Positions 33,155 to 53,168 of a stretch of 64,000 bases of DNA are shown here, piece after piece. The stretch's first letter is position 1. Every line of letters starts with the position of its first letter. This stretch comes from Aquella oligotrophica (GTDB lineage Bacteria; Pseudomonadota; Gammaproteobacteria; Burkholderiales; UBA11063). Under the pieces are notes generated by a model. That model searched no databases. It had not been told where the DNA came from and worked only from the letters and a program-made list of their open reading frames with translations. The position numbers were made by a program, and so were the translations under genes. The stretch lies in NCBI RefSeq assembly GCF_002892535.1, contig NZ_CP024847.1:930001-994000 (forward strand), given 5' to 3'.

Positions 33155-33156
33155 GA

Positions 33157-33699: not shown

Positions 33700-33817
33700 T
33701 TTTATTCCTTTCGCTTGATGTTTGTGCAAGATTATAGCCTATATTATGATAAAATATGTGCCCTAAATTCAAGAATTCAAGAGCACCTACTCATGATATC
33801 TAAATTTAGTTATAATA

Positions 33818-33925
33818 AAACTGCTCGTACTATCTCGCAATAGCTGCGTTACAAGGCTCCTTATTTACTTCTCATGTAAATCGCGTCGCCTTGCGCCTTG
33901 CTCTTGCTATATATTCCGGCAGTTA
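33818..33925. repeat. 108-bp palindromic intergenic repeat, copy 3
   Basis: Third copy, with arms AAACTGCTCG / TTCCGGCAGTTA, internal CAAGGC / GCCTTG and central TTTACTTCTCATGTAAA. Similarity to copy 1 continues about 25 bp past the right end (ACATAGTATGGGTAGTTAC). It lies between the divergent hslV and thrS genes. Its own right arm ends 54 bp before the thrS start. Confidence 0.8.
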
Positions 33926-33979
33926 CAGGAGTTACATAGTATGGGTAGTTACAATAAAATTTTAGATTAAGGAATATAA

Positions 33980-35866: not shown

Positions 35867-35880
35867 CCAAAGTGTTCAAT

Positions 35881-35918
35881 AAACCAAATGGAGTCTTGTT
35901 TAAGGCTCCATTTGGTTT
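35881..35918 (+). terminator. Intrinsic terminator after thrS
   Basis: AAACCAAATGGAG pairs exactly with CTCCATTTGGTTT around a 12-nt loop: a 13-bp stem starting 14 nt after the thrS stop, with a short T-run. It separates thrS from the lipoprotein-polysaccharide unit. Confidence 0.8.
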
Positions 35919-35935
35919 ATAGTGTTTATAAAATG

Positions 35936-35944
35936 TGTTACAAT
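35936..35944 (+). promoter_or_regulatory. Extended -10 promoter of the lipoprotein-polysaccharide unit
   Basis: TGTTACAAT lies 35 nt before the TTG start at 35980. No terminator is visible between here and the right edge, so it may drive much of the polysaccharide locus. Confidence 0.4.
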
Positions 35945-35979
35945 TGCTATTGATAGCAAATTTATTTTGGGGTAAGTAT

Positions 35980-36585
35980 TTGAAGAATAAATTAATCTTA
36001 TTATCTTTAATTGGCTTGATGACAGCATGTGCATCGCATAGCCAGTCTTCTAATCCGACAACAAGTGTTAGCAATGCTAGTGTAAATCAGACTGCGGCAA
36101 ATAATTCAGCTACAGCAACAGAGTCAACATTGCCTGTATTGGTTGAAGATACGGTTATAAAACAACAGATGCCAAATGCTATTTTGTTTGATCTTTATGA
36201 AAGTAGAGTTAGTCAGCAATTTATGCCAATAATTGCTTGGAATGCAGGCTATTTACTCCGGTTCCCAAATGCAAAAGTGGAGATTCAGGGAAATGCTGAT
36301 GATAAGCATAATTCAGTATCTGATGAAAAACTAGCTATGGCAAGAGCGCAAAATGTTAAAGACGTTCTACTTTATATGGGCGTAAGTGATCAGCAGATTA
36401 GTATAAAATCATTAGGTAATAAACATCCTGTTTTTGCTAAAGACAGTGATGGACACCAGCCACGTAATCAACGAGTCGATATCATGTATACTGTTGCTCC
36501 GCCGCAAGGCTATCATATTGATAAAATCCCAGTTGTGATTACTACTTCAGTAGAGCAGGTAGCTATTCCTGAGCCAATCTATTAG
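35980..36585 (+). CDS. OmpA-like lipoprotein
   Basis: A 201-aa outer-membrane lipoprotein. The start is TTG at 35980 with GGGGTAA upstream; it gives MKNKLILLSLIGLMTAC, a lipoprotein signal with lipobox Leu-Met-Thr-Ala-Cys (the longer frame from 35935 buries this signal). After a Ser/Asn/Thr-rich linker, an OmpA C-terminal peptidoglycan-binding domain spans about 80-185: AILFDLYESRV, VEIQGNADDKHNSVSDEKLA, MARAQNVKDVLLYMGV, then NQRVDIMY with the conserved Arg. Similar to Pal-like and YiaD-like proteins that tie the outer membrane to peptidoglycan. It lies 20 nt before glf without a terminator. Confidence 0.88.
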   Translation: MKNKLILLSLIGLMTACASHSQSSNPTTSVSNASVNQTAANNSATATESTLPVLVEDTVIKQQMPNAILFDLYESRVSQQFMPIIAWNAGYLLRFPNAKVEIQGNADDKHNSVSDEKLAMARAQNVKDVLLYMGVSDQQISIKSLGNKHPVFAKDSDGHQPRNQRVDIMYTVAPPQGYHIDKIPVVITTSVEQVAIPEPIY

Positions 36586-36605
36586 AGATATAAGGGTTTA
36601 GTATC

Positions 36606-37754
36606 ATGAGTATGTTTGATTATGTGGTTGTCGGAGCTGGATTATCTGGTGTTGTCATGGCAGAGCGGATTGCAAGCCAGCTAAAAAAGCGAGTGCTGAT
36701 TATTGAACGCCGGGAACATGTTGGTGGCAATACCTACGACTATTATAACGAAGATGGTATTTTAGTTAGCCGTTATGGCCCACATGTATTTCATACTAAG
36801 CTAAAAGAAATCTGGGGGTATCTATCTCAGTTTACCGAGTGGCATCACTATCAGCATAAGGTTTTAGGACATGTGGACGGTAATTTGGTGCCAATTCCAT
36901 TCAACTTAAACAGCATTAAAATACTATTTCCCAAGCCCGTTGCTGAAAAATTAAGTAGTAAGTTAATAAACTTCTTTGGTTATGGCAATAAGGTTCATGT
37001 TTTAGAACTTAAAGAAACTAAGGATGAAGATCTGAAGTTTCTTGCCGATTATGTGTATGATAAGGTGTTTTTAAATTTTACCCATAAACAGTGGGGATTA
37101 AGACCTGAAGAACTTGATGTATCAATTACTGGGCGAGTGCCAATTTATATTTCTTATGATGATAGGTATTTCAAGGATGAATTTCAGGGAGTACCAAAGT
37201 TTGGTTATGCGCGGATGATTAAAAATATGCTTAATCATAATAATATCAAATTAATGCTAAATACTGATTATCGCGAGGTTCTAACGGTAAATCATTTAAC
37301 AAAACAGATTAAATTATTTGGACAGCCATTTGAAGGGAAGCTAATTTATACTGGTAAAATTGATGAATTATTTGATTTTTGTTTTGGTGAATTGCCGTAT
37401 CGGGGGCTGGAACTTAAATTTGAAACTGTTAACCGGGAGTTTTATCAGGAAGCTGGAACGATTCACTTTTCAAATGAATACGAATTTACTCGGGTTTCAG
37501 AAATGAAAAGAATTACCGGGCAAAAGAGTAATGTTACAACAATTATTCGTGAATTTCCCAAAGATTGTAATCGTAATGATATTCCATATTATCCGATTCC
37601 ACAACAAGAAAATATTGAAAAATTTAATCAGTATAAAGAAAAAGCCAAAGATTATCCAAATATAATTTTAACTGGTAGGCTTGCTGATTATAAATACTAT
37701 GATATGCATGCATCAATCCTGATGGCATTAGACAAATTTAAAAAAGGATTATGA
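36606..37754 (+). CDS. glf: UDP-galactopyranose mutase
   Basis: A 382-aa flavoenzyme that interconverts UDP-galactopyranose and UDP-galactofuranose. The N-terminal FAD-binding motif is [18 protein letters not shown] followed by [22 protein letters not shown] and the active-site Arg region ([18 protein letters not shown]) match Glf. Its presence implies galactofuranose in the surface glycan. AAGGG lies nine bases upstream of the first ATG. Its stop overlaps the gmd start (ATGA). Confidence 0.96.
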
Positions 37755-38830
37755 CTTTGAAAAAAGTAGCATTAATAACTGGAATCAATGGTCAAGATGG
37801 CTCATATTTGGCAGAATTATTGATAGAAAAAGGTTACGAGGTTCATGGTATTCTTCGTCGTAGTTCAATTTTTAATACGCAACGGATAGAGCATTTATAT
37901 CTTGATGATCTAGTTGAAGATATGCATAAAGAACGTAAGCTACAATTACATTATGGCGATATGACTGATTCAACTTCATTAATTCATATTATCCAAAAAA
38001 CCCAGCCAGATGAGATTTATAATCTGGCGGCACAATCACATGTAAAAGTATCGTTTGAGATTCCTGAATATACTGCAAATGGTGATGCAATTGGAACGCT
38101 ACGAATTTTGGAAGCTGTACGAATGCTAGGCTTGGAAAAGAAAACTCGGATTTATCAGGCATCAACTTCTGAATTATATGGTAAAGTACAGGAAATCCCA
38201 CAAACTGAAACTACCCCATTTTATCCACGTTCGCCTTATGCGGTAGCGAAGCAATATGCGTTCTGGATTACCAAAAATTACCGTGAGGCATATAATATGT
38301 ATGCGGTAAATGGTATCTTATTCAATCATGAATCAGAACGGCGTGGTGAGACTTTTGTAACTCGTAAGATTACCTTAGCCGTTGCCAATATCAAAAAGGG
38401 CTATCAAAAAAAATTATATTTAGGTAACCTAAACTCCCTACGTGACTGGGGTTATGCCAAAGATTATGTTGAATGTATGTGGATGATACTTCAACACGAT
38501 ACCCCAGAAGATTTTGTAATTGCAACAGGTGAGCAACATTCAGTACGTGAATTTACTGAGCTAGCATTTAAAGTTGCTGGAATCGATATTGAATGGCGAG
38601 GTGAAGGTATTAATGAGCAAGGAGTTTGCCGTCAGAGTGGTCAAGTATTGGTAGAAGTAGATCCAAAGTATTTTCGCCCAACAGAAGTGGATACCTTACT
38701 GGGGAATCCGGCAAAAGCTAGAGAGCTATTGGGCTGGAATCCAACCAAAACATCCTTTGAACAGCTAGTTAAGATTATGACAACACACGATTTAGATTAT
38801 GTTGAAAGAATGAGATTGGCGAGATATTAA
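37751..38830 (+). CDS. gmd: GDP-mannose 4,6-dehydratase
   Basis: A 359-aa SDR enzyme that converts GDP-mannose to GDP-4-keto-6-deoxymannose. The NADP-binding motif is [42 protein letters not shown], the catalytic SELYGK and [13 protein letters not shown] (Tyr-x3-Lys) and [17 protein letters not shown] are all diagnostic. Overlaps glf by 4 nt and is followed by fcl after 1 nt. With Fcl it supplies GDP-L-fucose, used by the GT11 fucosyltransferase nearby. Confidence 0.97.
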
Positions 38831-38831
38831 G

Positions 38832-39920
38832 ATGGATAAAAAAAGTAAAATTTATATTGCGGGACATCGTGGGCTGGTTGGTTCAGCGCTAGTTCGGAAC
38901 TTACAGGTAAATGGTTATACAAATTTGGTATTAAAAACCCATGCTGAACTTGATTTGACAAATCAACAGGCAGTACATGAGTTTTTTGCCAAAGAACAGC
39001 CTGAATATGTATTTTTAGCTGCGGCTAAAGTTGGCGGGATTCATGCTAATAATACTTACCGGGCAGATTTTATCTATGATAATCTACAGATTCAGAATAA
39101 TATTATTCATGCCAGTTATCAGAATAATGTCAAGAAACTATTATTTCTTGGTAGCAGTTGCATTTATCCTAAAGAGGCACCTCAACCGATGCCTGAAGAT
39201 TGCCTCTTAACAGGAGTGCTTGAATATACTAATGAACCATATGCAATAGCTAAAATTGCTGGTATTAAGCTATGCGAAAGCTATAATCTGCAGTACGGGA
39301 CTAATTATATAGCGGTTATGCCAACCAATCTTTATGGACCGAATGATAATTTTGATCTTGAGAAATCACACGTGTTACCTGCAATGATACGTAAGATACA
39401 TCTGGCAAAATTGCTGGATGAGGGGAATTATTTAGAGATTGCAAAAAATCTGAGCATCAATCCTGACAATACTTTATTGGAAAAGACTCTTGCTAAATAT
39501 GGTATAACTAAAATTGCTAAGATAACAACATTGAAGCTCTGGGGTAGTGGCAATCCATATCGAGAGTTTTTGCATGTAGATGATATGGCAGATGCATGTA
39601 TTTATGTCATGAATAAAGTTGATTTTACCGATCTTATCAAAGGTAAGAGCGAAATTAGAAATACTCACATCAATATTGGAACTGGTGAGGATTTAACAAT
39701 TAGGGAATTGGCATATTTAATCAAGGAACAAATCCAGTTTAATGGACAGATAGAATTTGATGCAACTAAACCAGACGGAACTTATCGTAAACTACAAGAT
39801 GTAAGTAAACTGCATCAACTTGGTTGGCGGCATAAGATCAAGCTTTCAAGTGGAGTAAAAGAATTAAGTGACTGGTATTTAAATAATAACCTTGTTAGCA
39901 GCAAAAATGACCAATTTTAG
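38832..39920 (+). CDS. fcl: GDP-L-fucose synthase
   Basis: A 362-aa SDR epimerase/reductase that finishes GDP-L-fucose. Motifs: [66 protein letters not shown] (Tyr-x3-Lys) and [10 protein letters not shown]. It is about 40 residues longer than E. coli Fcl because of an insertion at about 195-240 ([19 protein letters not shown]) before [18 protein letters not shown]. The active site is unaffected. The stop lies inside the start of the wzx gene. Confidence 0.96.
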
Positions 39921-41157
39921 AAAATATGCAAGTAGTGCTGTTTTTCGAAATTTTGTTTATCTAAATCTGACACAGGTAATAAATTATATTTTTCCATTCG
40001 TAACCTTTCCTTATGTATCAAGGATTTTTTCCCAAGATAATTATGGTTTAATCATTACTGCTACAGCATTTGCCAGTTATCTTGGTTTATTTACCGATTT
40101 TGGTTTTAATCTTTCAGCAACTCGCGACATTGCAAAAGAAGCAAAAGAAAATCCACTAGCAATTAATCGGATTTTTAATAGTGTAATAACTGCTAAAATT
40201 GTTTTATATTTTGTTTTTTTAATTCCGTTATGTGGCTTTATTTTTATTTCGGATAAATACAGCAGGCATGCTTCAATTTTTATGTGGTATTTTGCTGGGG
40301 TTTTCGGTAATTTATTATTTCCTACTTGGTATTTTCAGGCCACCAATAATATGCAGAATATTGCCAAATTTAATTTGCTAAGTAGAGTTCTTGGTGTATT
40401 ATTATTATTCTTGATTGTACGGAATAATGATGATCTTCTAAATTTTGCTATAATGAATGCTGTTATTTCATTAATAATAGGGGTACTGGCTATCTATATT
40501 GTTATCAGCAAATATCATATTCATCTTAAATTGTCATTTAAGTTCACAGCCTTACTGGTTACCATTAAGGAGGGCTTTGCAAGTTTTACCGCAGTACTAC
40601 TGATTAGTTTTTATACCACATTTAACTCTCTTCTACTAAGTTGGTTTTGTGGTTATAAAGATGTTGCTATTTATGGTGTTGCAGATAAAATTATTGGTAT
40701 AGTGTTAACAGTACAAGGGGCGTTAATTCAGGCAGTTTACCCGTCGATAACAGCCGAAGAACAAGGTTCAATTATCAAGCATAAAACATTGAAGTTATTC
40801 CGGTATAATATTTTCTTAGGGGTTATGATTTGTGTGTTCCTTAATTTATTTGCACCTTTAATAATTCATATCTTTACCGGACATAAATATGATCTTTCTA
40901 TCCCTGTCTTGCGCATTTTATCGTTAGTCCCTATAATTATGGCTTTCTCGTCAGCATTGTCAACATACTGCTTTGCGTTAAAGAAAGAGCGATATCAGGT
41001 ATATGCTTATATTATAGGTGTCATTTACTGTATTATGGCTAATTTAATTCTTATTAAAAATTATACTTATTTTGCGGTGAGCTATAACTATCTATTGTGT
41101 GAGATTATAAGCTTATTTGCTCTATATTTATTCATAAAAAATATAAAGTCAAGGTAA
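39907..41157 (+). CDS. wzx: Polysaccharide flippase, Wzx/RfbX family
   Basis: A 416-aa membrane protein with about 12 hydrophobic helices and few charges, of the MOP/PST flippase superfamily. The N-terminal [20 protein letters not shown] and [20 protein letters not shown] match O-antigen flippases, and [19 protein letters not shown] is the central cytoplasmic loop. It moves undecaprenyl-linked repeat units to the periplasm. ATG 39907 is preferred over the TTG at 39892; both overlap the 3' end of fcl. No Wzy-type polymerase is seen in the window. Confidence 0.88.
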
Positions 41158-41158
41158 T

Positions 41159-41917
41159 ATGACTATGAAAGATTCAATTGCGATAATTTATAAACTTTAT
41201 AAATTACAAACAAAAGAGCTCTTCAAGCAGTTGGCTAAACTTTTTCTGTTCTACAAAGAAAAGAAAGTATTTTTGGCAAATAGCAATCAAAAACGCTTTG
41301 AGCTTGGTCAAGACTATCCATGTTTACTTGATCGCACAAAAACAACGGGTTTTGATCCACATTACTTATATCATGTGGCTTGGGCATGTCGAAAGATTGT
41401 CGCAATTAACCCATCGAAGCATATTGATATTTCTTCGTCATTAAATTTTTGTGCAAATGTTTCAGCAATTGTGCCTACAGAATTTTATGATTTTAGACCA
41501 GCAGATATATGTCTTGACGGTCTAGTGTGTAAATCAGCCAATATTTTAGACTTGCCACATGAAGATAATAGTGTAGAATCATTATCATGTATGCATGTTG
41601 TTGAACATATTGGTCTTGGGCGTTATGGTGATAGTATAGACTATAATGGTGATTTGAAGGCTATTCGTGAACTTAAACGAGTTCTTAGGGCTGATGGCAG
41701 CCTAATTTTTGTGGTTCCAATATCAGCAACGCCTGAAATTGAATTTAACGCTCATCGGAAATACAGCTTTGAGCAGGTTATGGATTTATTTGCTGAGTTT
41801 AAATTAATTGAACATGCTCTAGTCACAGACGAACATCAATTTGTTATAAATCCAGAACCTCAGTTATACCAGGCACAACATTATGGATGTGGGTGTTTTT
41901 GGTTTAAAAAAAGATAA
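41159..41917 (+). CDS. DUF268-like, methyltransferase-like protein
   Basis: A 252-aa protein with a class I methyltransferase-like fold. SCMHVVEHIGLGRYGDSID followed by DLKAIRELKRVLRADGSLIF is the post-motif II/III region of SAM enzymes, and IDISSSLNFCANVSAIVP replaces the usual Gly-rich motif I. This matches the DUF268 family often found in glycan loci. The normal SAM-binding glycines are not evident, so it may not methylate. Starts at the first of two ATGs, with AAGG just upstream. It lies between wzx and a GT2 gene. Confidence 0.75.
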   Translation: MTMKDSIAIIYKLYKLQTKELFKQLAKLFLFYKEKKVFLANSNQKRFELGQDYPCLLDRTKTTGFDPHYLYHVAWACRKIVAINPSKHIDISSSLNFCANVSAIVPTEFYDFRPADICLDGLVCKSANILDLPHEDNSVESLSCMHVVEHIGLGRYGDSIDYNGDLKAIRELKRVLRADGSLIFVVPISATPEIEFNAHRKYSFEQVMDLFAEFKLIEHALVTDEHQFVINPEPQLYQAQHYGCGCFWFKKR

Positions 41918-41933
41918 TTTGAGTTTAAAGCTG

Positions 41934-42860
41934 ATGAACCTAGTTAGCGTAATTATGCCAGTTTATAATTCCAGAAAGTATCTAGCTCGTGCAATAGAGA
42001 GTATTTTGCATCAGACTCATACTAATTTGGAGCTAATCATTATTGATGATTGCTCTAGTGATGATAGTCTTGAAATAGCAGAAAGCTATCAAATACGAGA
42101 TAATAGGGTTAGAATAATAGCTAACTCCAAAAATAAAAAGCAAGCTTATTGTCGAAATATCGGGATTGAACTCTCCTCTGGTGACTATATTGCATTTCTT
42201 GATTCTGACGATATCGCCTGTGAGAATAGAATTCAGCTCCAGCTTGGATATCTTGAAAATAATCCAGATTGTGTAGGTTGTGGAAGCTATGGAGAGTATA
42301 TAGATAAAGATGGTAATTTATCTGGACGGTATATAATACCTCCAGTTAACTATCCGTTGATCAAGGCTGAAGCTTTTTTTGGAGATAATCCATTTATTCA
42401 GTCCTCCATGATGCTACGGAAAGATATTCTCAATAAATATAACCTGAGATATGATGAATCATATGGGGGTATAGCAGAAGACTATCAATTCTGGTTACAA
42501 ATTCTGAAAAATGATTTAAAATTATTAAACATTAACAAACCTCTTGTTTATTATCGTTTTGGTGATAATTTACAGGCTACCGTAATGAATAGCCACAAAT
42601 TTAGACCAGTTGTTGAGGCTATGGTTATTGAAAATATTGAGTTAATCTGTCATAAAAAATATATTGGAAAACTATATCGGCAAAGTCTTTTACGAGACGA
42701 TTTTTTAAGGAAAGTGGTAGCTATTCTACTCTATCCATTAGCCGCAATAATGATTATTTATTCTAATAATAAATCCAAAATATTAGATAAGGATGCTTTA
42801 AAAAAGACTCTATACATGCATTCTCCTCGAATTAATTTACTTCGCTTTGTTTTAAGGTGA
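41934..42860 (+). CDS. Glycosyltransferase family 2 (copy A)
   Basis: A 308-aa GT-A enzyme starting at ATG 41934, 17 nt after the previous stop (a longer frame from 41883 adds untypical residues). Motifs: VSVIMPVYNSRKYLARAIES, LIIIDDCSSDDSLEIAESYQ and the DxD-like AFLDSDDIA; later AEDYQFWLQI (the ED acceptor motif). The C-terminal end has a hydrophobic and basic patch (YPLAAIMIIYSNN) suited to membrane association. It is strongly similar to the GT2 at 44472, and the two flank the GT6-GT11 pair. Sugar specificity is not readable. Confidence 0.9.
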   Translation: MNLVSVIMPVYNSRKYLARAIESILHQTHTNLELIIIDDCSSDDSLEIAESYQIRDNRVRIIANSKNKKQAYCRNIGIELSSGDYIAFLDSDDIACENRIQLQLGYLENNPDCVGCGSYGEYIDKDGNLSGRYIIPPVNYPLIKAEAFFGDNPFIQSSMMLRKDILNKYNLRYDESYGGIAEDYQFWLQILKNDLKLLNINKPLVYYRFGDNLQATVMNSHKFRPVVEAMVIENIELICHKKYIGKLYRQSLLRDDFLRKVVAILLYPLAAIMIIYSNNKSKILDKDALKKTLYMHSPRINLLRFVLR

Positions 42861-42862
42861 TC

Positions 42863-43645
42863 ATGAAAATCGCAATACTATATATTTGTACCGGAAAATA
42901 TGATGTTTTCTGGAGTGAGTTTTATGATAGCTGTAAAAAAATGTTTTGTCCGGAACAAGAAAAGCACTTTTTTGTATTTACTGATTCACCACGAATTCAT
43001 GGCGATGAGCATGTTAGTATTATCTATCAGGATAATTTAGGGTGGCCATTTAATACCTTATACAGATATAAAATGTTTTTGAGAATAGAAGAACAACTAC
43101 TTAATTTTGATAAAGTGGTGTTTTTTAATGGCAATTGTGTTTTTGTGGATAACGTTGAATTTAATGAGTTCTTTGGAGTTGAGTCTAAGTTATTAGCTTG
43201 TCTTCATCCGGGATTCTTTGACAAAAAGCATGAAGAGTATACTTATGAGAAGAGAGAAACCTCTACCGCATTTGTAATAAAACCATGGAAATACTTTGCT
43301 GGCGGTATAAATGGTGGAGATAGTCGCTTATTTCTTGAAATGTGCCATAAAATTTCTGAAAATATTGAAATTGATTTAAATAATGGTATTGTTGCTCTGT
43401 GGCATGATGAAAGTCACTGGAATAGTCTACTTAATAACGAACGTAGTTTGATTGAGCCAATATTACATATTCTATCTCCGGCGTATCTATATCCAAATGG
43501 CTGGGAGATCCCGTTTTTGGCAAAAATTCGGTTACGGGATAAAAATAATTATGGGGGTCATGGATTTTTGCGTGGAGAGCGTAATATGGAAAGCCGGGTT
43601 AAAAGATTTCTCAAGTTTATGGCAGGGAAGTTTAAATGCAGATAG
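42863..43645 (+). CDS. Glycosyltransferase family 6 (ABO-like alpha-1,3-Gal/GalNAc transferase)
   Basis: A 260-aa bacterial member of the family that contains the human A and B blood-group transferases. Start is ATG 42863, with AAGG at ideal spacing; GTG 42857 is less likely. Family marks: AILYICTGKYDVFW, FFVFTDSPR, NLGWPFNTLYRYKMFLRIEE, HPGFF, FAGGINGGDSRLFLEMCHK, HDESHWN and SPAYLYPNGWEIPF. Where animal enzymes have the metal-binding DxD, this has Asn-Gly-Asn at 89-91 (FFNGNCVF). The NxN variant is known in bacterial metal-independent GT6 enzymes. It likely adds alpha-1,3-linked Gal or GalNAc to a galactose that carries alpha-1,2-fucose. Overlaps the following GT11 gene. Confidence 0.93.
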   Translation: MKIAILYICTGKYDVFWSEFYDSCKKMFCPEQEKHFFVFTDSPRIHGDEHVSIIYQDNLGWPFNTLYRYKMFLRIEEQLLNFDKVVFFNGNCVFVDNVEFNEFFGVESKLLACLHPGFFDKKHEEYTYEKRETSTAFVIKPWKYFAGGINGGDSRLFLEMCHKISENIEIDLNNGIVALWHDESHWNSLLNNERSLIEPILHILSPAYLYPNGWEIPFLAKIRLRDKNNYGGHGFLRGERNMESRVKRFLKFMAGKFKCR

Positions 43646-44475
43646 TGTGGTGTCTAGGTGGATTAGGGAATCAGATGTTTCAATATGCCTTTTATCGTAA
43701 ACTTGAATTGATGGGGAAAGAAGTATACCTTGATTTAAGTGAATTTAATAATTATGATCTCCATAATGGTTTTGAGTTACAAAAAATATTTGCAGTTGCT
43801 CCTAAAATTATTCCATCTATTGCAGTGAAAAAATTCCGGCAAAATAAATTTTTTAAAGTACTTGCCAGATTAAAACTTTATCAACGAATTATTAGCCAAT
43901 CGGAATTTAACTTTAATTCCAAATATCTTGATTATTCTTTCTCACGTTATCTGATTGGCTACTGGCAGTCTGAATCATATTTTGCAGAAATAGAGCGGCA
44001 GATTAGGGAGGATTTTACTTTTCCATCTCTAGATGCCGCTAATCAGCTTATTGCTAATCAGATAAGGAGCACTAATGCTATTTCTTTGCACGTTAGAATG
44101 GGTGACTATGTTAATCATCCATTGCATGGAGGCATTTGCACTAAGGAGTTTTATTTAAGAGCGATAGATATAATCAAAGATAAAGTAGAAGGTCCACAAT
44201 TTTTTGTATTTTCGAATGAAATTGACTGGTGTAAAAATAATCTTCCATTAGCTAATGCAGTTTATGTGGGTGGAAATGATGGTGAAAACAGTTATCGTGA
44301 TATGCAGTTAATGAGCCTATGTAAGCATAATATAATTGCCAATAGCTCCTTCAGTTGGTGGGGTGCATGGCTAAATAGTAATATCAATAAAATTGTAATT
44401 GCTCCGGCAAAGTGGTTTAATGATCCACAAATAAATACTAGTGATTTATTGCCAGCCTCTTGGGTAAAAATATGA
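43636..44475 (+). CDS. Alpha-1,2-fucosyltransferase, GT11 family
   Basis: A 279-aa fucosyltransferase of the FutC/WbgL/WbnK family (GT11), adding L-fucose from GDP-fucose to galactose. N-terminal WCLGGLGNQMFQYAFYRKLE is the family hallmark; the donor motif HxRxGDY is HVRMGDY at 152-158; AVYVGGNDGENSYRDMQLMS and NSSFSWWGAWLN are the other conserved blocks. GDP-fucose is provided by Gmd and Fcl in the same locus. Overlaps the GT6 gene by 10 nt; the GT2 start overlaps its stop (ATGA). Confidence 0.95.
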   Translation: MQIVWCLGGLGNQMFQYAFYRKLELMGKEVYLDLSEFNNYDLHNGFELQKIFAVAPKIIPSIAVKKFRQNKFFKVLARLKLYQRIISQSEFNFNSKYLDYSFSRYLIGYWQSESYFAEIERQIREDFTFPSLDAANQLIANQIRSTNAISLHVRMGDYVNHPLHGGICTKEFYLRAIDIIKDKVEGPQFFVFSNEIDWCKNNLPLANAVYVGGNDGENSYRDMQLMSLCKHNIIANSSFSWWGAWLNSNINKIVIAPAKWFNDPQINTSDLLPASWVKI

Positions 44476-45401
44476 ATAGTCCATTAGTTTCAGTAGTAAT
44501 GCCGGTATATAATGCTGAAAAGTATGTTGCTGAAGCGGTTGAGAGTATATTGAATCAGTCATATACCAATTTTGAATTTATTATCATTGATGACTGTTCT
44601 ACAGATAATAGTTTTGAGATTCTTAAAAGATATAGAAATAGTGATAATAGAATAAAGCTTTTTCATAATGAAACGAATTGCAAATTACCTACTACATTAA
44701 ATCTTGCGATTGACCATGCAGTAGGGAAATATATATTACGGATGGATGCAGACGATATATCTTTACCAGACAGATTAGTCAAGCAGGTTGAATTTATGGA
44801 GGCTAATCCTGAAATTGGTGTAAGCGGTACTTGGTATAATGTATTTGATGATGGTATGGAAAAAATGCTTTATCATGAACAAAAGCCACTTGAGCATGAT
44901 ATGATACTAATTTATATGAATCTGCTTGATAATCCAATAGGGCATCCTACGGTAATTTTGCGCAGAGAAATTTTGAAAAATAATCATTATCCGGAAGATA
45001 TGAGGAATAATGCAGAGGATTATAGTTTGTGGTTAACTTTAAGCCAAAAAGGTATTAAATTTGCAAATCTCCCAGAATATACTCTAAGCTACAGACTCTC
45101 TAAATCATCTCTAAGTCAGGCAAACCAAAAAAATATTAATCTTACCCTAGTAGAAGTTATTTCATATACATTAACTAAGCTTAAAATTAAGCACAAAAAA
45201 ATTAATTACTACCTAAATGCTTTTGTCCTTCCTGGAAGCCTTTTTAGCAAATTATATAATATGTTATGGTCAACCTATGTATTAAAAGAGATTGAAAATA
45301 ATAATCGCAAAATTCAAATCTTTCCAGAAAAAGAATTATCTTTATTTGTCCGCGAACTTTCAATTGTTAATAAGCTAATTAGGAAAGTTAGATTACAATG
45401 A
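44472..45401 (+). CDS. Glycosyltransferase family 2 (copy B)
   Basis: A 309-aa GT-A enzyme; the start ATG overlaps the fucosyltransferase stop as ATGA. VSVVMPVYNAEKYVAEAVES, FIIIDDCSTDNSFEILKRYR and MDADDISLPDRL (the DxD site) are clear, followed by NAEDYSLWLTLSQKG. It resembles the GT2 copy A (about 41934) closely in its first 60 residues, so the two probably arose by duplication. Specificity unknown. Next gene starts with ATGA overlap. Confidence 0.9.
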   Translation: MNSPLVSVVMPVYNAEKYVAEAVESILNQSYTNFEFIIIDDCSTDNSFEILKRYRNSDNRIKLFHNETNCKLPTTLNLAIDHAVGKYILRMDADDISLPDRLVKQVEFMEANPEIGVSGTWYNVFDDGMEKMLYHEQKPLEHDMILIYMNLLDNPIGHPTVILRREILKNNHYPEDMRNNAEDYSLWLTLSQKGIKFANLPEYTLSYRLSKSSLSQANQKNINLTLVEVISYTLTKLKIKHKKINYYLNAFVLPGSLFSKLYNMLWSTYVLKEIENNNRKIQIFPEKELSLFVRELSIVNKLIRKVRLQ

Positions 45402-46516
45402 CAAAAAAGATTTTATTTATTACGGAGGATTATATTTGTGGTGGTGTTGCTACAGTTTCACAAACACTTAAACAAGCTATTAATCTTGATTGCAATTATC
45501 AAATGGATATAGGATTATTGAATTCCAGAAATGATTATGCAGGTTTTAAACCAGTATTTATTTTAAACCAGCACGAAGCCAAAAATAAAGTTATGAAATT
45601 ATTTAGATTGTTCTCGGATAGTCTAAAATTATCCCGAAAAATCTCAGGTTATGACATTATCATCGTTAATGGTGATTTGTTTCAGGTGGTGATTCCGGTT
45701 TGGATATTTTCTCTTTTCAAAAAAATAAGAGTTATCGCGTGGGTACATGCCTGTCTTGATAAAGTAAAATATTATCCAAACCAGCTTATCAAGAGTATTC
45801 ACTGCATCGGATTAAAATCTTTTACACAAATTGTTTGTGTAAGTCATGAGTCGGCACGAAGTCTAGCTGCATACGCTGGGGCGGAAATATCAACCAGAAT
45901 TGAAGTAATTTATAATCCATTTATAATTACTGAATTAGAAAAAGCATTGCCGATTGCTGACTTAGATAATCGGAAAATAAAAATTATTGTGTTAGGGCGT
46001 CTGGTGGCAGAGAAAAATTTTGCCTTATTAATAAGGGCTCTCAGTATGTTACAGAACAAAAATCTTCAGTTGATTATTTGTGGTGAGGGTAGTGAAAAAA
46101 ATGCGCTTATTGAGGAAGCAATTGCTCTAAATGTTTATGAACAATTACTATTTGTAGGACAAACAGACAATCCTCTTGGGTACATTGCTGCTTCTGATAT
46201 ACTTGTTTCTACTTCTACCACGGAAGCATTACCCTCAGTTATCATTGAAGCTCTGGCATTATCCAAAGTTATTATTGCTACCGATACAGGAGCAAGAGAG
46301 ATCTTAACTCATGGTTGCGGAGTTATTATTCCTGTCAATGAACCAGCTATTCTTGCTCAGGCAATTGAGAAAGTCATTAATGATGAGTTATTACGAAAGC
46401 AATTGATACAAAATAGGCATTTAGCGTTAAAACCTTTTATGATTGAAAATGTTATTCCCTACTGGTTGAAAACGTTTGCTCGGTTATTTGAAAATGATGC
46501 AAAAAATTTATATTAA
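45398..46516 (+). CDS. Glycosyltransferase family 4
   Basis: A 372-aa GT-B enzyme. N-terminal FITEDYICGGVATVSQTLKQ; nucleotide-sugar half with KIIVLGRLVAEKNFALLIRA, LIICGEGSEKNALIEEA, FVGQTDNPLGYIAASDI and the E-x7-E motif TTEALPSVIIEALALSKVII. The C-terminal amphipathic end (ENVIPYWLKTFARLFEND) suits membrane contact. It overlaps the genes on both sides, so translation is coupled. Confidence 0.92.
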   Translation: MTKKILFITEDYICGGVATVSQTLKQAINLDCNYQMDIGLLNSRNDYAGFKPVFILNQHEAKNKVMKLFRLFSDSLKLSRKISGYDIIIVNGDLFQVVIPVWIFSLFKKIRVIAWVHACLDKVKYYPNQLIKSIHCIGLKSFTQIVCVSHESARSLAAYAGAEISTRIEVIYNPFIITELEKALPIADLDNRKIKIIVLGRLVAEKNFALLIRALSMLQNKNLQLIICGEGSEKNALIEEAIALNVYEQLLFVGQTDNPLGYIAASDILVSTSTTEALPSVIIEALALSKVIIATDTGAREILTHGCGVIIPVNEPAILAQAIEKVINDELLRKQLIQNRHLALKPFMIENVIPYWLKTFARLFENDAKNLY

Positions 46517-47570
46517 TGGTTATTTCCTGACTGAACAGGTAAAAGGTGGTGTGAATCGTTTTGCATTACAAATGACAATTGCGTTTGATAAGATCATTAA
46601 ATCAATGGTTCAAGATAGTCAAACTGAATTTATTTTGTTAGTCCCAAAGATAAATTTTTTGGAGGTTTCTCTTAAGAATATAAAAATACATGAAATTACT
46701 TATTTTCAAAATAAATACCTTTGGGAGCAGATACTACTCCCATTATACACAGGTAAAAGCTTTTTGATTAATTTTGCTAATTTTGCGCCAATTATTAAAA
46801 AAAATCAGTTATGTGTGATCCATGATGCGCTGATTTTTAGATATCCAGAGTCATATAGCTGGAAATTCAGGCTAATTACACAATTTTTTCATAAACAGTT
46901 AGTTATGAGGTCTGAATATATTGGTACAGTTTCTAATTTTAGTGCTAGAGAAATTAATGCTGTAATAGGCAAACCAAAAAATCCAGTAGTCGTATTTGGT
47001 AATAGTGCAGATAATTTTACTTACACAAGTGAATCTTCTGAATACCTACAAATGATTGGTATTGTCAGGGAGGGCTATATACTTTCTATCTTTTCACAAA
47101 AAAATTCAAGCTATAAAAATATTCGAGCTTATCTTGATGCGATAGCTAAAGTTAATTATACTTTTGTATGCGTAGGCAGTGTTGAAATAGAAAAAGAATC
47201 TATGCCTGATAATCTTATTCAGTTAGGAGTTGTTTCCGATGCTCAATTACATACATTATATCAGAACGCATATGCAACTTTAGTTCCTTCACTGTATGAA
47301 GGGTTTGGGATTCCATTACTTGAAGCAATTTCCTCCGGGAGTCCGTTAATTATTTCAGATATTCCAGTCTTTCGGGAGATTATTAAAGAAGCTGCAATTT
47401 ATTTTGATCCACATAATTCAGATGATATTATTGCTAAAATAGAGTATCTATTAAAAAATTCAGAACTGAGAGAATCATTAATTGTAAATGGACGAAAAAT
47501 TTTGCCACTATACTCATGGAGCGTTTATGCAGAGCAGCTTAAAGAGCTTATTGAGGATCATATATTATGA
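46494..47570 (+). CDS. Glycosyltransferase family 4, paralogue of the gene at 61813
   Basis: A 358-aa GT4 enzyme. I use ATG 46494 (or 46497), giving MQKIYINGYFLTEQVKGGVN; the open frame begins at 46476. Family motifs are LWEQILLPLYT, NFANFAPIIKKNQLCVIHDA and the acceptor site VPSLYEGFGIPLLEAISSGS. These regions match the gene at 61813 (LWEQLGLPWYS, FPSLYEGFGIPVVEAMGLG), suggesting a paralogous pair. The type is frequent among O-antigen mannosyl- or rhamnosyltransferases, but specificity is not determined. It ends ATGA-coupled to the GT9 gene. Confidence 0.9.
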   Translation: MMQKIYINGYFLTEQVKGGVNRFALQMTIAFDKIIKSMVQDSQTEFILLVPKINFLEVSLKNIKIHEITYFQNKYLWEQILLPLYTGKSFLINFANFAPIIKKNQLCVIHDALIFRYPESYSWKFRLITQFFHKQLVMRSEYIGTVSNFSAREINAVIGKPKNPVVVFGNSADNFTYTSESSEYLQMIGIVREGYILSIFSQKNSSYKNIRAYLDAIAKVNYTFVCVGSVEIEKESMPDNLIQLGVVSDAQLHTLYQNAYATLVPSLYEGFGIPLLEAISSGSPLIISDIPVFREIIKEAAIYFDPHNSDDIIAKIEYLLKNSELRESLIVNGRKILPLYSWSVYAEQLKELIEDHIL

Positions 47571-48583
47571 AAATCCTATTAATTAAGCGTGGGGCAATTG
47601 GTGATTTATTAATGGCTACGCCATTGATTCGTCAGCTTAAATTAAAATGTAATGCCAGTATTGACCTTCTGGTTGGCGAGAATGCTGCAATTGCCTGTAG
47701 GGATAACCCTCACCTTAATAGGCTAATTATATTACCCGATACTGATTTTTCAATTAAAGGTGTATTTAGATTTGCTATACAATTAATTAGACTTCGTAAG
47801 CAATATGATTATGTCTTTCTTCTTGATAAACACTGGTATTTTAATCTGATGGCTAATCTGCTTTGCACCAAAACTGTTGGTTATTATCGTGAGGATTGGC
47901 AAAAATTCACTTTATATTATCCAGTATTATATAATGACGTAACACGCTACCATTGCTACTATTATCTTGATTTATTAAAGCAAAGTAATCTTGCTAGCCC
48001 TGATTATACCGATATCCAGATTGATTTACCAATTAAAGATAGTGACCAAAAATATATCAATGAAAAACTTTATGAAAATAATCTTGAAGATTTTGTTGTT
48101 CTCGTAAATAGTGGCGGAAATAACGCCTATGAGAAGACAGGTATCCGGATGTTACCAGAAGATAAAGTTATTGAATTACTTGAGCTCATTATTCAGCAAA
48201 GGAAAAAAATTATTCTAATTGGTGGTAAAGTGGATCGGGTAAATTATGATGATTATATTAGTCAATTGCTTGATAATTCTAATTGTTATAACTGGGCGGG
48301 AGAGTTATCTTTGGCGCAAAGTGCCTATTTGATTAGTAAAGCTAGAATATTTTATACAACTGATTGTGGGGCAATGCATTTTGGTGTTGCGATGGGGCTT
48401 CATGCTCGACTGAAAGCATTTTTTGGACCATCTGATCCGCGACATATATTACCACCAGATTATATTGGGAGATCATCGATCTGGCATGATAAAGAGAATT
48501 TTGACCCAGCTTATCAGTTAGAAGGTGTAATTGATAAAAATAAGAAATTCTTTCGCAATATTAGAATATCAGATTATGTGTGA
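47567..48583 (+). CDS. Glycosyltransferase family 9 (heptosyltransferase-like)
   Basis: A 338-aa GT-B enzyme of the ADP-heptose:LPS heptosyltransferase family. N-terminal KILLIKRGAIGDLLMATPLI is the hallmark; the C-terminal part has NSGGNNAYEKTGIRMLPEDK, WAGELSLAQSAYLISKARIF and TTDCGAMHFGVAMGL (the D..pxH..aA motif with Asp then Met-His). Such enzymes add heptose to the LPS core, but locus members can use other sugars. Starts by ATGA overlap with the previous gene. An 84-bp gap follows. Confidence 0.92.
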   Translation: MKILLIKRGAIGDLLMATPLIRQLKLKCNASIDLLVGENAAIACRDNPHLNRLIILPDTDFSIKGVFRFAIQLIRLRKQYDYVFLLDKHWYFNLMANLLCTKTVGYYREDWQKFTLYYPVLYNDVTRYHCYYYLDLLKQSNLASPDYTDIQIDLPIKDSDQKYINEKLYENNLEDFVVLVNSGGNNAYEKTGIRMLPEDKVIELLELIIQQRKKIILIGGKVDRVNYDDYISQLLDNSNCYNWAGELSLAQSAYLISKARIFYTTDCGAMHFGVAMGLHARLKAFFGPSDPRHILPPDYIGRSSIWHDKENFDPAYQLEGVIDKNKKFFRNIRISDYV

Positions 48584-48667
48584 TAAGAGCAATTTTAGCA
48601 AATAAATTTATTTCTAAATTCAGATACTCTTATAATAATGGATAAATTGTTTTTTTAGTGTTAAGTA

Positions 48668-49372
48668 ATGAATAAACTGTGGTATAGACTTCTGGGCATT
48701 GGAATAAGTGCATTAGTTATTTATATGCTCTTTAATCACTATGGTTTATGGTCATATTTAAGTCTAGATGGATTTAATCACTATCATCAGCAGATACTAG
48801 AGTTCGAGCAAAAACATGTAATTAGTTTTACGCTTATTTATATCCTGAGCTATATTGTATTAATTGCTTGTTGTATTCCTGGGACAATATTATTTGACCT
48901 TTTGGCTGGTTTTATTTATGGGACGGTTTTAGGTACACCAATTGTTCTTGTTAGCTATCTTAGTGGCGCGATACTTAATTTTATACTAGTTCGGACGCTA
49001 TTTAAAGATGTTCTTCATCAAAAATTTTCTCATCTTCGGCATATTGTTTTGCGCGATGGTGGACGTACAAGAACCGCTTATAACCTTATTGGTTTACGAT
49101 TTATTCCAATAATTCCTTTCTGGTTACTCAATATACTTGCTGCAATTTTGGATATTCCCTTAGTTACTTTTATTATTACTACATTTATCGGCATCATTCC
49201 GACTTCGGTAATTTATGTCATGATTGGTAATGGAGTACGTAGTCAATTGGCAGAAAATGCAAAAGTTTCTTTAGACGTTTTAACTAATCCTGAACTATGG
49301 ATTCCGCTGGTATTGCTGGCATTATTAATAATTATTCCGAATTTATATAAAAGCTTTAAGAAAAATAGTTAA
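48668..49372 (+). CDS. TVP38/TMEM64 family membrane protein (VTT domain)
   Basis: A 234-aa integral membrane protein. Residues about 60-195 form the VTT/SNARE-associated domain of the DedA superfamily: IACCIPGTILFDLLAGFIYG (the glycine-rich re-entrant part), YLSGAILNFILVRTLF, and the signature RFIPIIPFWLLNILAAILDI, which has the conserved Arg and prolines. DedA-type proteins recycle lipid carriers such as undecaprenyl phosphate, and TVP38 members may move lipids, which would suit a glycan locus. A TATAAT at 48631-48636 in the gap before it could be a local promoter, but no -35 or extended -10 is seen. Confidence 0.85.
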   Translation: MNKLWYRLLGIGISALVIYMLFNHYGLWSYLSLDGFNHYHQQILEFEQKHVISFTLIYILSYIVLIACCIPGTILFDLLAGFIYGTVLGTPIVLVSYLSGAILNFILVRTLFKDVLHQKFSHLRHIVLRDGGRTRTAYNLIGLRFIPIIPFWLLNILAAILDIPLVTFIITTFIGIIPTSVIYVMIGNGVRSQLAENAKVSLDVLTNPELWIPLVLLALLIIIPNLYKSFKKNS

Positions 49373-49377
49373 ATTTT

Positions 49378-50790
49378 ATGCAGTTAAAAAAAAATACCAT
49401 ACAGAAAATTGGCTTGATTGGGGCAGATATTATCAGCCTAACAGTAGCATTTCTTTTAGCAATCTCTCTTACCCAGCGTTATCATTTAGATTTATTTAAT
49501 AGTCCTTGGTCAAATTTTTTTCATTTCGGGGTTTCTAAGCTCTTAGGTGTATTAATAATAGCTATTTTCTGGTATGCGGAGCAATACACCAAACGGAGAC
49601 CTTTTTGGGAAGAGTTGCTTCAAACCTACCGGATTATTGGACTCTTAATTGTTATTAATCTGGGACTTTCTTTTGTAATGGGTAAATCTTCATTAAAAGT
49701 CCTCATTGTAGGTTTTTGGGTTTCTTTTGCAATAGTATTACCATTAATTAGGATATGTGCCAAGCTGTTAATGTCAAACTTTAATATTTGGCAAAGAAAT
49801 TTATATATCATTGGTACTGGTACTACAGCAAAAGAGGCGTATGAATTATTTGCACTAAATATTCTCATGGGTTATCGTATTAAGAAATTTGTTACAACAA
49901 ATTCTTCTGTGGCAGATTTAGATCTTCCTGCTGGGGTTGTCCATATTGATGAATTACTTGAACTTGTTAAAGCAGATAGTGAATGTGAAATTATTGTTGC
50001 ATTAAGTTATCAAGAATTAAATAATCAAATGAAGATGATAAATTATTTACAACATAATTGTATGTATTTATCTGTGTTACCCGAAATTACTGGTCTAGCT
50101 TTATATGGCGCACATATAGATCATTTTTTTGGTAATGATCATTTAATTTTACGCTTAAACAATAATCTAGCTCGTCCTTTTAATGCCTTTCTAAAAAGAG
50201 TATTTGATCTGATACTGGTTGTAGTTGGGTTAATAATTTTAAGCCCTGTATTTCTTACAATCGCTTTTATTATAAAACTTACAACTAAAGACAAGGTTTT
50301 TTTCTTCCACAAAAGAGTTGGTAAACATGGTAAACCATTTTATTGTATTAAGTTTCAAACTATGTATCCTAACAGTAGTGAATTATTAGCTAAATTACTC
50401 GAAAATAGCCCTGATGCAAGATTGGAATGGGAAAAAGACTTTAAGCTGAAAAACGACCCACGAGTTACAGCAATTGGTAAATTTTTACGTAAAACTAGCC
50501 TTGATGAGTTGCCACAGCTATTTAATGTCTTACGTGGAGAAATGAGCCTTGTTGGTCCGCGACCAATAATTGATCGGGAGATAGAGCGTTATGAGGATGG
50601 TTACTATTATTATCAATTGGTATTACCTGGTATAACTGGATTATGGCAAGTAAGTGGAAGAAATGATGTTGGTTATAAAAACCGGGTTAGACTAGACGAG
50701 TGGTATGTTAAAAACTGGTCTTTATGGTATGATATTGTTATAATAATAAAAACTTTTGGCGTAGTTTTAAAAAGAACTGGAGCCTACTAA
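49378..50790 (+). CDS. wbaP: Undecaprenyl-phosphate sugar-1-phosphotransferase, WbaP-type
   Basis: A 470-aa polyprenyl-glycosylphosphotransferase that starts repeat-unit synthesis by loading a sugar-1-phosphate on undecaprenyl phosphate. Four N-terminal membrane helices (about 10-125) and a cytoplasmic CoA-binding-like region precede the catalytic part: membrane helix LILVVVGLIILSPVFLTIAF, KVFFFHKRVGKHGKPFYCIK, LRKTSLDELPQLFNVLRGEM (the conserved Asp-Glu), SLVGPRP and ITGLWQVSGR. The long N-terminus matches WbaP (galactose-1-phosphate) rather than short PglC-type enzymes, but the sugar is inferred. Confidence 0.92.
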   Translation: MQLKKNTIQKIGLIGADIISLTVAFLLAISLTQRYHLDLFNSPWSNFFHFGVSKLLGVLIIAIFWYAEQYTKRRPFWEELLQTYRIIGLLIVINLGLSFVMGKSSLKVLIVGFWVSFAIVLPLIRICAKLLMSNFNIWQRNLYIIGTGTTAKEAYELFALNILMGYRIKKFVTTNSSVADLDLPAGVVHIDELLELVKADSECEIIVALSYQELNNQMKMINYLQHNCMYLSVLPEITGLALYGAHIDHFFGNDHLILRLNNNLARPFNAFLKRVFDLILVVVGLIILSPVFLTIAFIIKLTTKDKVFFFHKRVGKHGKPFYCIKFQTMYPNSSELLAKLLENSPDARLEWEKDFKLKNDPRVTAIGKFLRKTSLDELPQLFNVLRGEMSLVGPRPIIDREIERYEDGYYYYQLVLPGITGLWQVSGRNDVGYKNRVRLDEWYVKNWSLWYDIVIIIKTFGVVLKRTGAY

Positions 50791-50830
50791 CCTAAATTCT
50801 GCTTTTATCTCTTAACCCTTGATAAAGCTA

Positions 50831-50839
50831 TGCTATAAT
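50831..50839 (+). promoter_or_regulatory. Extended -10 promoter of the POT transporter gene
   Basis: TGCTATAAT lies 35 nt before the ATG at 50875, with no -35 at 17 nt. It may also serve wzm and wzt, which follow without a terminator. Confidence 0.5.
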
Positions 50840-50874
50840 TTAGTTTGATTAAAACTAATCATGGGGTGGGGTAA

Positions 50875-52359
50875 ATGTCTAATAGTCAGTCAGGAAATTT
50901 TCTTAAACAGCCTTTTTTTATCCTGTGTTTTCTAGAGTTCTTTGAGCGTTTTGGCTATTACGGCTTTAATTATATCTCGATTTATTTTTATATCTCAAAA
51001 CTTGGCTTTTCGGAGTCTCAGGCAACAGTCCTGATGGGGGGATTTGCTGCACTTACCTATGTTTTTAATGCTGTTGGTGGCTATGTGGCAGACAATGTAC
51101 TTGGTATCAAAAGGACCATGTTTGTTGGAGCGGCGTTACTATGTTTAGGCTATGCGTCTTTAGCGATTGGAAGTAGTTTAAGCCCTCATCTGGTATATCC
51201 AGCACTTGCCTTCATTATCATTGGTTCATGTCTATTTAAACCTGCGCCAACCAATCTTATTGCTGCGATTTATGGTTCAGATAAAAGTAAGCTTGATTCA
51301 ACCTATACCTACTTTTATATGTCTATCAATATGGGGTCATTTTGCGCCTCAATTCTTATCCCTTTATTAGCTAAGAATGTTGGTTATACAGTAGCACTAT
51401 TGGTTTGCTCTATTGGACTTTTGTTAGGGATTATCTATAACATCAAACATTATTATGTTATTCGTGAAGTGGATAATCGTATCGGGCTTATTCCTTTAAA
51501 TGTAAAAAAAATAGCTCCTTTTATACTGTCTGTAATTGTGGGGATAGTATTTGTAACGGTTATGCTTGAAAATGATGGTCTTATTAACTGGTTATTAACA
51601 ATTGCTTCAGTAATCATTTTTACGCTATTTATTTGGCAAATTATAAAAGAAGAAAGTCGCTCACAAAAACAAAAAATGATTGTTGCTGTAGTCTTACTAT
51701 TCTATGCAGTCGTGTTTTTTGTTATCTACCAGCAAAAAAATACTTCATTTATGCTATTTAATAAACATCACGTGAATCTTAATTTTTTAGGTTGGGATAT
51801 AAACCCACAAACAGTACCAGGATTTTTGGGGACAAGTGGGATTATTCTTTTGTCGCCAATTTTTGCCGCTATGTATCGCAGATTGGGTAAGCGTGATTTG
51901 GCTTTGCCACAAAAATTTGCTATTGGGCTTTTCTTAAGTGCTTCTGCCTACGGACTATTATTTTTAGTCTGTTTATTTACTAATCCAAGTGACAAAATTA
52001 GTTTTGCTTGGGAAATACTTTCAATTTCAGTATTTTTTGCTTCTTCTGAGTTGCTAATCAGTGCGTTAGGCGTATCATTAATGGCACAGCTTGTCCCAGA
52101 TCGGATGCGTGGTTTTGCCATGGGGACATGGTTTATCACTAGTGCCTTAGGGATAAAGCTAGGTTCATATGTTGCTTCACTAGTTGCTAATAATGCCGGG
52201 AAAGGTAAAATAGATGTTGTTTATTCTGCTAGTGAACAGATCGCTAGTTTTGAAAAATACCAACATTTATTTGGTTCTATAGCCGCATTTGGCTTGGCTT
52301 GTGGGGTTATTGCTTGGCTTATCGGTGGTAGGTTAACCAGAATGATCGGAAATAATTAA
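50875..52359 (+). CDS. POT-family (PTR2) peptide:proton symporter
   Basis: A 494-aa membrane transporter of the proton-dependent oligopeptide family with about 14 helices. FLEFFERFGYYGFNYISIYF contains the ExxERFxYY proton-coupling motif; GGYVADNVLGIKRTMFVGA and YTYFYMSINMGSFCASILIP are the other signatures. It takes up di- and tripeptides. It has its own promoter and no evident link to glycan assembly, yet lies between wbaP and wzm; only 5 bases separate its stop from wzm. Confidence 0.93.
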   Translation: MSNSQSGNFLKQPFFILCFLEFFERFGYYGFNYISIYFYISKLGFSESQATVLMGGFAALTYVFNAVGGYVADNVLGIKRTMFVGAALLCLGYASLAIGSSLSPHLVYPALAFIIIGSCLFKPAPTNLIAAIYGSDKSKLDSTYTYFYMSINMGSFCASILIPLLAKNVGYTVALLVCSIGLLLGIIYNIKHYYVIREVDNRIGLIPLNVKKIAPFILSVIVGIVFVTVMLENDGLINWLLTIASVIIFTLFIWQIIKEESRSQKQKMIVAVVLLFYAVVFFVIYQQKNTSFMLFNKHHVNLNFLGWDINPQTVPGFLGTSGIILLSPIFAAMYRRLGKRDLALPQKFAIGLFLSASAYGLLFLVCLFTNPSDKISFAWEILSISVFFASSELLISALGVSLMAQLVPDRMRGFAMGTWFITSALGIKLGSYVASLVANNAGKGKIDVVYSASEQIASFEKYQHLFGSIAAFGLACGVIAWLIGGRLTRMIGNN

Positions 52360-52364
52360 TTTTT

Positions 52365-53153
52365 ATGAAAATAGCATTACTCGCAATAAAAAATCGTAAA
52401 ATGCTTTTAAATCTGATAAAGTCAGACTTTAAAAATCGCTATTTGGGTAATCATTTGGGAATCGTTTGGGCATTTATTCAACCCTTAGTGATGGTTGCAG
52501 TTTACTGGTTTGTTTTTACCAAAGGTTTTCGGGCGCAAGCGGTATCTGATGTTCCATTTCTCCTGTGGCTTCTAGCAGGAATGGTTCCTTGGTTTCTACT
52601 TAATGATGCAATTATGAGTGCCAGTAATGCCATAACTAGTCAAAGTTTTCTTGTCAAGAAGATAGTATTTGAGGTTAAGTTACTTCCATTGGTAAAGATT
52701 GGCTCAGCAATTATAGTGAATTTGGCATTCTGGATATTCTTAATTTTGGTGTGTTTTTTATATGGTTACTATCCAAACTTAATTTGGCTGCAATTGATTT
52801 ATTTCTTTTTGTGTACTATTGCGATTAGCCTTAGTTTGAGCCTGTTATTTTCTGCGGTAATGCCATTTTTGCCTGACGTAGGACAGATTCTTGCCGTGGT
52901 TTTTCAGGTGTTATTTTGGGCGACTCCGGTTATGTGGAACCCTGCCATGCTACATGGTAAGCTTACATATATAATTAAACTAAATCCATTTGCATATTTG
53001 GTGATTGGTTTTCGAGAAACTCTAATTAACCAACAAGCATTCTGGCTACATTATAATCAGATGATTTATTTTTGGGCTTTCACACTTTGTTGCTATTGGC
53101 TTGGAAATCGGACATTTAATAAACTTCGTCCGCATTTTGCTGATGTATTGTAG
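52365..53153 (+). CDS. wzm: Polysaccharide ABC transporter permease Wzm
   Basis: A 262-aa ABC-2 type permease with six membrane helices. DFKNRYLGNHLGIVWAFIQP is the characteristic N-terminal motif of Wzm/KpsM/TagG permeases; VMWNPAMLHGKLTYIIKLNPFA is near the C-terminal signature. Together with Wzt it exports completed, lipid-linked polysaccharide to the periplasmic face. Preceded by a poor ribosome-binding site; wzt follows after 15 nt. Confidence 0.94.
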   Translation: MKIALLAIKNRKMLLNLIKSDFKNRYLGNHLGIVWAFIQPLVMVAVYWFVFTKGFRAQAVSDVPFLLWLLAGMVPWFLLNDAIMSASNAITSQSFLVKKIVFEVKLLPLVKIGSAIIVNLAFWIFLILVCFLYGYYPNLIWLQLIYFFLCTIAISLSLSLLFSAVMPFLPDVGQILAVVFQVLFWATPVMWNPAMLHGKLTYIIKLNPFAYLVIGFRETLINQQAFWLHYNQMIYFWAFTLCCYWLGNRTFNKLRPHFADVL

Positions 53154-53168
53154 GATATTGAGCGTTCT

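Follow-up and report, generated by a model that had tools for sequence, protein, structure and literature searches.

A predicted blood-group-A-type capping module in an exchangeable surface-glycan cassette of Aquella oligotrophica

A family 6 glycosyltransferase gene (GT6) and a family 11 gene (GT11) that overlap in the genome of Aquella oligotrophica P08T probably encode the A-type capping module for a surface glycan whose locus is serotype-like, with the blood group A trisaccharide as the module's predicted product. The organism is a free-living member of the Neisseriaceae from laboratory tap water (PMC6612550). Within the 64,000-nucleotide stretch of DNA that was analysed (the window), the first-pass annotation had described a GT6 gene overlapping a GT11 gene at 42863-44475, with gmd and fcl in the same locus. 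Profile matches confirm both families (PF03414 and NF041524 for GT6, PF01531 for GT11), and the reading frames of the pair share 10 nt. The GDP-fucose genes, matched by TIGR01472 and NF047922, are likewise present, and both lie in one swapped block with the pair.

Gene content of the locus and proposed route

The genes GT2a-GT6-GT11-GT2b are found in this order, all on the plus strand like the rest of the locus, inside a run that starts with glf, gmd, fcl, wzx and a methyltransferase gene and continues with GT4a, GT4b, GT9, DedA and WbaP. The UDP-galactopyranose mutase gene glf (36606..37754) matches PF03275 (236 bits) and, over the cut-off, TIGR00031 (437 bits), and galactofuranose (Galf) would therefore also be expected in the glycan. 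The genes for GDP-mannose 4,6-dehydratase (gmd, 37751..38830; TIGR01472, 587 bits, cut-off 415) and GDP-L-fucose synthase (fcl, 38832..39920; PF01370) are located 4-5 kb upstream of the GT6-GT11 pair. In the profile search, fcl scores 473 bits against NF047922 over two stretches; an insert of about 35 aa near residues 195-230 keeps the score slightly below the 500-bit cut-off. Next are genes for a Wzx-type flippase (39910..41157; PF01943, 138.7 bits), a SAM methyltransferase-like protein (41159..41917; DUF268, 46.8 bits; Methyltransf_11, 24.9 bits) and the GT2 glycosyltransferase GT2a (41931..42860; PF00535, 132 bits). GT6 (42863..43645) is a predicted metal-independent alpha-1,3-N-acetylgalactosaminyltransferase and GT11 (43636..44475) a predicted alpha-1,2-fucosyltransferase. 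Downstream are a second GT2 gene, GT2b (44472..45401; PF00535, 134 bits), whose place beside GT11 is conserved across the genus, and two GT4 genes, GT4a (45398..46516; PF00534, 110 bits) and GT4b (46494..47570; profile match). The locus ends with a heptosyltransferase-like GT9 gene (47567..48583; PF01075) that is conserved in the related genomes G302, G165, G259 and G127, a DedA/VTT membrane protein gene belonging to the conserved frame of the locus (48668..49372; PF09335), and a gene for a WbaP-type undecaprenyl-phosphate hexose-1-phosphate transferase, the first-step enzyme (49378..50790; TIGR03022, 464 bits, cut-off 403), which has relatives throughout the genus. No ORF for a Wzy polymerase was found at 36-51 kb of the window, which counts against the reading proposed below, and Wzy_C proteins are encoded only elsewhere in the genome.

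Also elsewhere in the genome are ManC, GalE and a WbpP-type UDP-GlcNAc/GalNAc epimerase (453 bits to 1sb8), which make a supply of GDP-mannose, UDP-Gal and UDP-GalNAc plausible. We propose that WbaP would load hexose-1-phosphate onto undecaprenyl phosphate and that the GT2 and GT4 enzymes would extend it, with one of them, perhaps GT2b, providing a terminal beta-galactose. GT11, judging by its family, would transfer L-fucose in alpha-1,2 linkage to that galactose from GDP-fucose made by Gmd and Fcl, and GT6, for which homology is a stronger guide, would add GalNAc alpha-1,3 to the same galactose in a metal-independent reaction. The same strong homology predicts that the product would be GalNAc-alpha1,3-(Fuc-alpha1,2)-Gal, carried on a lipid-linked glycan. 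This unit could then be flipped by Wzx and passed to LPS, or to protein by one of two PglL-type ligases encoded in the genome (L099 and L100, each with PglL_A, Wzy_C and Wzy_C_2). We infer the acceptor, donor and linkage of GT6 and GT11 from sequence.

Other genomic regions have related content. A second glycan locus at window 52365-64000 encodes a Wzm/Wzt ABC exporter, a WbsX-type protein and a GT25-like protein, and a second WbaP gene is located just past the window end, at genome 994048 (L124:48-1460). A second gmd at 2.81 Mb of the genome (L123:12562-13635), about 98% identical to the window copy, belongs to a different sugar cluster and has no neighbouring fcl, a pattern suggestive of recent duplication or gene conversion. 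An integrase-like ORF at window 2845-4041 adjoins a gene that reads, by eye, as mnmE (4219-5565), and this site is probably the end of a genomic island.

Predicted activities of GT6 and GT11

GT6 has 260 residues, encoded from an ATG at 42863 (with an in-frame GTG at 42857) to a stop ending at 43645. Profile search places it in family 6 (PF03414, 82.7 bits, cut-off 25; NCBIfam NF041524, 266.6 bits, cut-off 250), and the phmmer E-value is about 1e-60 for the solved Bacteroides ovatus enzyme BoGT6a, compared with about 3e-20 for human ABO transferases. Its AlphaFold model (pLDDT 92.5) has the GT-A fold of the ABO/BoGT6a type, matches 4cj8/4ayj first and human GTA/GTB next, and superposes on BoGT6a with UDP-GalNAc at 1.8 Å, with 43% identity and a TM of 0.90 by target length (4cj8). 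The DxD motif is replaced by NxN (N89-G90-N91), as in metal-independent bacterial GT6 enzymes. The comparison with BoGT6a covered 21 positions, most of them ligand contacts given in PMC3961637; 20 are identical, and the sole change is A96 of NAN to Gly. Those kept include NxN, H122, T134, the A-G-G donor loop, WHDE and K231; in the numbering of the Aquella enzyme, H115, T127, A146-G147-G148, W180-E183 and K227 apply, and the catalytic Glu of WHDE, E183, aligns with E192 of BoGT6a. A basic helix at the C-terminus (residues 242-256) may bind the membrane.

The donor loop reads A-G-G in both the window GT6 and BoGT6a, L-G-G in human A, and Q-G-C in WbnI, the B enzyme of E. coli O86. By the human donor rule, GalNAc is preferred where position 268 is occupied by the small residue Gly, and the Aquella GT6 has Gly at the corresponding site. 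The A- or B-type branched unit anticipated by the first-pass annotation is supported by the enzyme families, with A indicated rather than B: the A-G-G loop and the 20 of 21 shared positions favour GalNAc over Gal as the predicted donor, by a rule that is not absolute. That the same module would instead use UDP-Gal, or both donors, and build a B determinant or a mixture seems rather unlikely. UDP-Gal should be available to GT6 through GalE, human-enzyme donor rules are imperfect across GT6, and closely related GT6 sequences can differ in having an A-type or a B-type loop; however, the loop is identical to that of a proven GalNAc transferase, and the Gly at the human-268-equivalent site also speaks for GalNAc.

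GT11 has 279 residues and belongs to family 11 by its match to PF01531 (122.4 bits, cut-off 23.9). Since phmmer against PDB sequences gave only chance matches to a cytokine receptor, we relied on a model and a fold search. The model (pLDDT 90) has as its best solved fold match Arabidopsis FUT1 (E 2e-7), an alpha-1,2-fucosyltransferase with galactose as its acceptor. GDP-colitose was considered as the donor and rejected, given that fcl adjoins gmd and that no colitose-type aminotransferase is among the listed locus genes; E. coli O55, whose enzyme is a relative of GT11, carries colitose. The HxRRGDY motif (residues 152-158, window 44100 region) reads HVRMGDYV in the Aquella protein, with the first Arg kept and Met in place of the second. 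Arg-Arg is kept in 65 of 75 GT11 rows in the motif table, and Arg-Met is found in the window, G165, G259 and G127, so that four GT11 proteins of the genus Aquella have HxRMGDY, whether or not GT6 accompanies them. The first Arg of the motif is reported to be critical (PMC4202792), and GT11, which keeps it, would be expected to be active; Met at the second position counts against the proposed reading. The alpha-1,2 linkage is not certain, because one GT11, from Helicobacter hepaticus, is an alpha-1,3-fucosyltransferase (PMC4202792).

The two enzymes are also associated beyond this genome. GT6 was found in 3 of the 23 genomes of the genus and GT11 in 7. In all three GT6 carriers (the window, G165 and G259), GT11 is directly downstream with the 10-nt overlap, and a GT2b relative comes after it (51% in G259, 43-44% in G165); GT2b homologues also occur near GT11 in G127, G303 and G308. 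GT11 is adjacent or fused in 29 of 80 named GT6 loci, which are the best matches to the window query and not a random sample (24 on the same strand, 3 on the opposite strand and 2 as one polypeptide). The pairing spans phyla, and is found in candidate-phylum bacteria, a methanotroph and cyanophages. Chance adjacency of the two genes was rejected in view of the fusions and of the overlap and gene order that three genomes share.

The fused genes are at L019:1226-2806 and L037:2098-3741, from a Magasanikbacteria MAG and a Kuenenia MAG. In cyanophages, GT11 and GT6 are side by side in Synechococcus phage B23 (L006:3213-4723), Bellamy (GT11 at 159115-159891, GT6 at 159891-160589), S-CAM9 and DSL-LC02, and it is possible that this is an A/B-type module on a virus genome. 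The GT6 of phage B23 has a DxD-type motif (DAD).

A second alternative is that the enzymes have separate targets, GT6 acting on unfucosylated galactose to give an alpha-Gal-like or Forssman-like structure and GT11 acting elsewhere in the glycan. Family GT6 also holds enzymes for non-fucosylated acceptors (PMC3961637), and the Gal-contacting residues of the Aquella GT6 are common to such enzymes, which counts against the fucosylated acceptor that we assume. In addition, 24 of the 80 loci have no GT11 within the flank examined, where flanking DNA is often incomplete. We nevertheless regard separate targets as improbable, given the conserved overlap and order, the two known fusions, and the use of Fuc-alpha-1,2-Gal by the characterised bacterial GT6 enzymes BoGT6a, WbnI and that of Helicobacter mustelae (PMC4202792).

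A swapped cassette and its variants in the genus

Comparison of genome sequences demonstrates that close relatives exchange the segment from gmd to GT4 as a single cassette, with G302 providing the strongest new evidence. In a blastn comparison of L165, a sequence of genome G302, with the window, the swapped segment is about 9 kb long (37745..46711-46760, plus strand, with the right border dependent on the alignment), has a GC content of 33.4% and contains gmd-fcl-wzx-MT-GT2-GT6-GT11-GT2-GT4. DNA of G302 matches the window at 31958-37744 (88-91%) and at about 46712-52224 (93%), or about 90-93% over both syntenic flanks, and between these flanks has about 4.6 kb with another flippase, other transferases and other sugar genes. 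The left border is at glf, 98% identical in G302, and the right border is within GT4b, 75% identical. GT6, GT11 and a true fcl were not found elsewhere in G302, a genome that is 81% complete. Because the whole block is replaced, gmd, fcl, GT6 and GT11 are present or absent as a set, and their joint exchange identifies a serotype-type cassette that brings its own fucose pathway. At the swap border of G302, a 66-aa glf-like stretch (44%; L165:9888-10079) adjoins the intact glf and is possibly a recombination remnant.

The GT9-DedA-WbaP frame also occurs in G165, G259 and G127, with other contents. At this locus the window and G165 have an A-type GT6 (A-G-G in both), G259 has a B-like GT6 (Q-G-A) with an fcl fragment just upstream at the contig end, and G302 has no fucose module; GT11 without GT6 is found in G127 and probably in G303 and G308. 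In the GT6 tree, G259 groups with an A-G-G sequence (L008) within a five-member clade that has full support and contains the window sequence, so the Q-G-A change looks derived. In human cis-AB variants, G-G-A can mean dual donor use, and for this reason B-like is only a prediction for the G259 enzyme. We tentatively suggest that this one serotype locus is, for the genus Aquella, a bacterial analogue of the ABO locus, with variation kept by phage or grazer selection and not by an animal host, although we consider this idea doubtful as yet.

Bacterial blood-group A/B epitopes are usually considered in terms of host mimicry or of the origin of natural anti-A/B antibodies, and the first-pass annotation had interpreted the pair as a host-like mimic. 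The predicted trisaccharide is identical to the vertebrate antigen and gut genera are among the named bacterial GT6 carriers, but acquisition to resemble animal tissue is highly improbable for a tap-water isolate (PMC6612550) whose nearest GT6 genes are bacterial and not vertebrate, whose GT6 has relatives in a methanotroph, in candidate phyla and in other environmental MAGs, and whose gene pair is also carried by cyanophages. Transfer of GT6 from vertebrates to Aquella was rejected, as the closest genes are bacterial: a fully supported clade joins the window GT6 with Methylomonas and a Sphingobacteriaceae MAG.

The cassette most likely makes a blood-group-A-like surface sugar, as predicted from sequence. 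The suggestion that this is a new case holds for the further example in Aquella and not for its kind, since E. coli O86, H. mustelae and B. ovatus are already known to form A/B-type epitopes in which GT6 follows an alpha-1,2-fucosyltransferase (PMC4202792, PMC3961637). What is added here is a self-contained swapped cassette, an A/B-like loop difference in one genus, and a non-host setting; this setting speaks against mimicry as a general explanation of the GT6-GT11 pair. Together with the cyanophage pair, the tap-water cassette and the loops in the genus suggest that ABH-type diversity also serves phage or grazer interactions, for which Aquella would be a simple, low-risk test system. GT6 and GT11 may also be of use as metal-independent tools in making the A antigen.

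Comparison with known systems

WbsJ, the alpha-1,2-fucosyltransferase of E. coli O128, is a GT11 enzyme 32-34% identical to the window GT11, with 78% DNA identity over 122 bp; the GT2 encoded after it is about 41% identical to GT2b. The O128 locus differs in having no GT6 in the annotated stretch, and WbsJ has HIRRGDY where the window protein has HVRMGDY. BgtA, the GTA-like enzyme of H. mustelae, is comparable by its published activity as a bacterial blood-group-A synthase on Fuc-alpha-1,2-Gal (PMC4202792), but its source is a ferret gastric pathogen, unlike Aquella.

The parallel with E. coli O86 drawn by the first-pass annotation is borne out: in a complete E. coli genome, wbnI and an alpha-1,2-fucosyltransferase gene lie within the O86 locus, which, like the window, combines GT6 and GT11 with a GDP-fucose pathway in a Wzx-type locus. 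WbnI was reached via the GT11 search; no E. coli GT6 was matched when the query was a GT6 gene from Helicobacter. The two systems differ in that WbnI is B-type, with the loop Q-G-C and 33% identity to the Aquella GT6, the O86 GT6 and GT11 genes are not adjacent, and wzy is within the O86 locus.

BoGT6a of B. ovatus (PDB 4AYJ, 4CJ8; PMC3961637) is a proven A synthase from a gut bacterium, whereas the enzyme of the water isolate Aquella, 43-46% identical to it, has a predicted activity. The two enzymes share the GT6 family, the NxN motif, the A-G-G donor loop and the fold.
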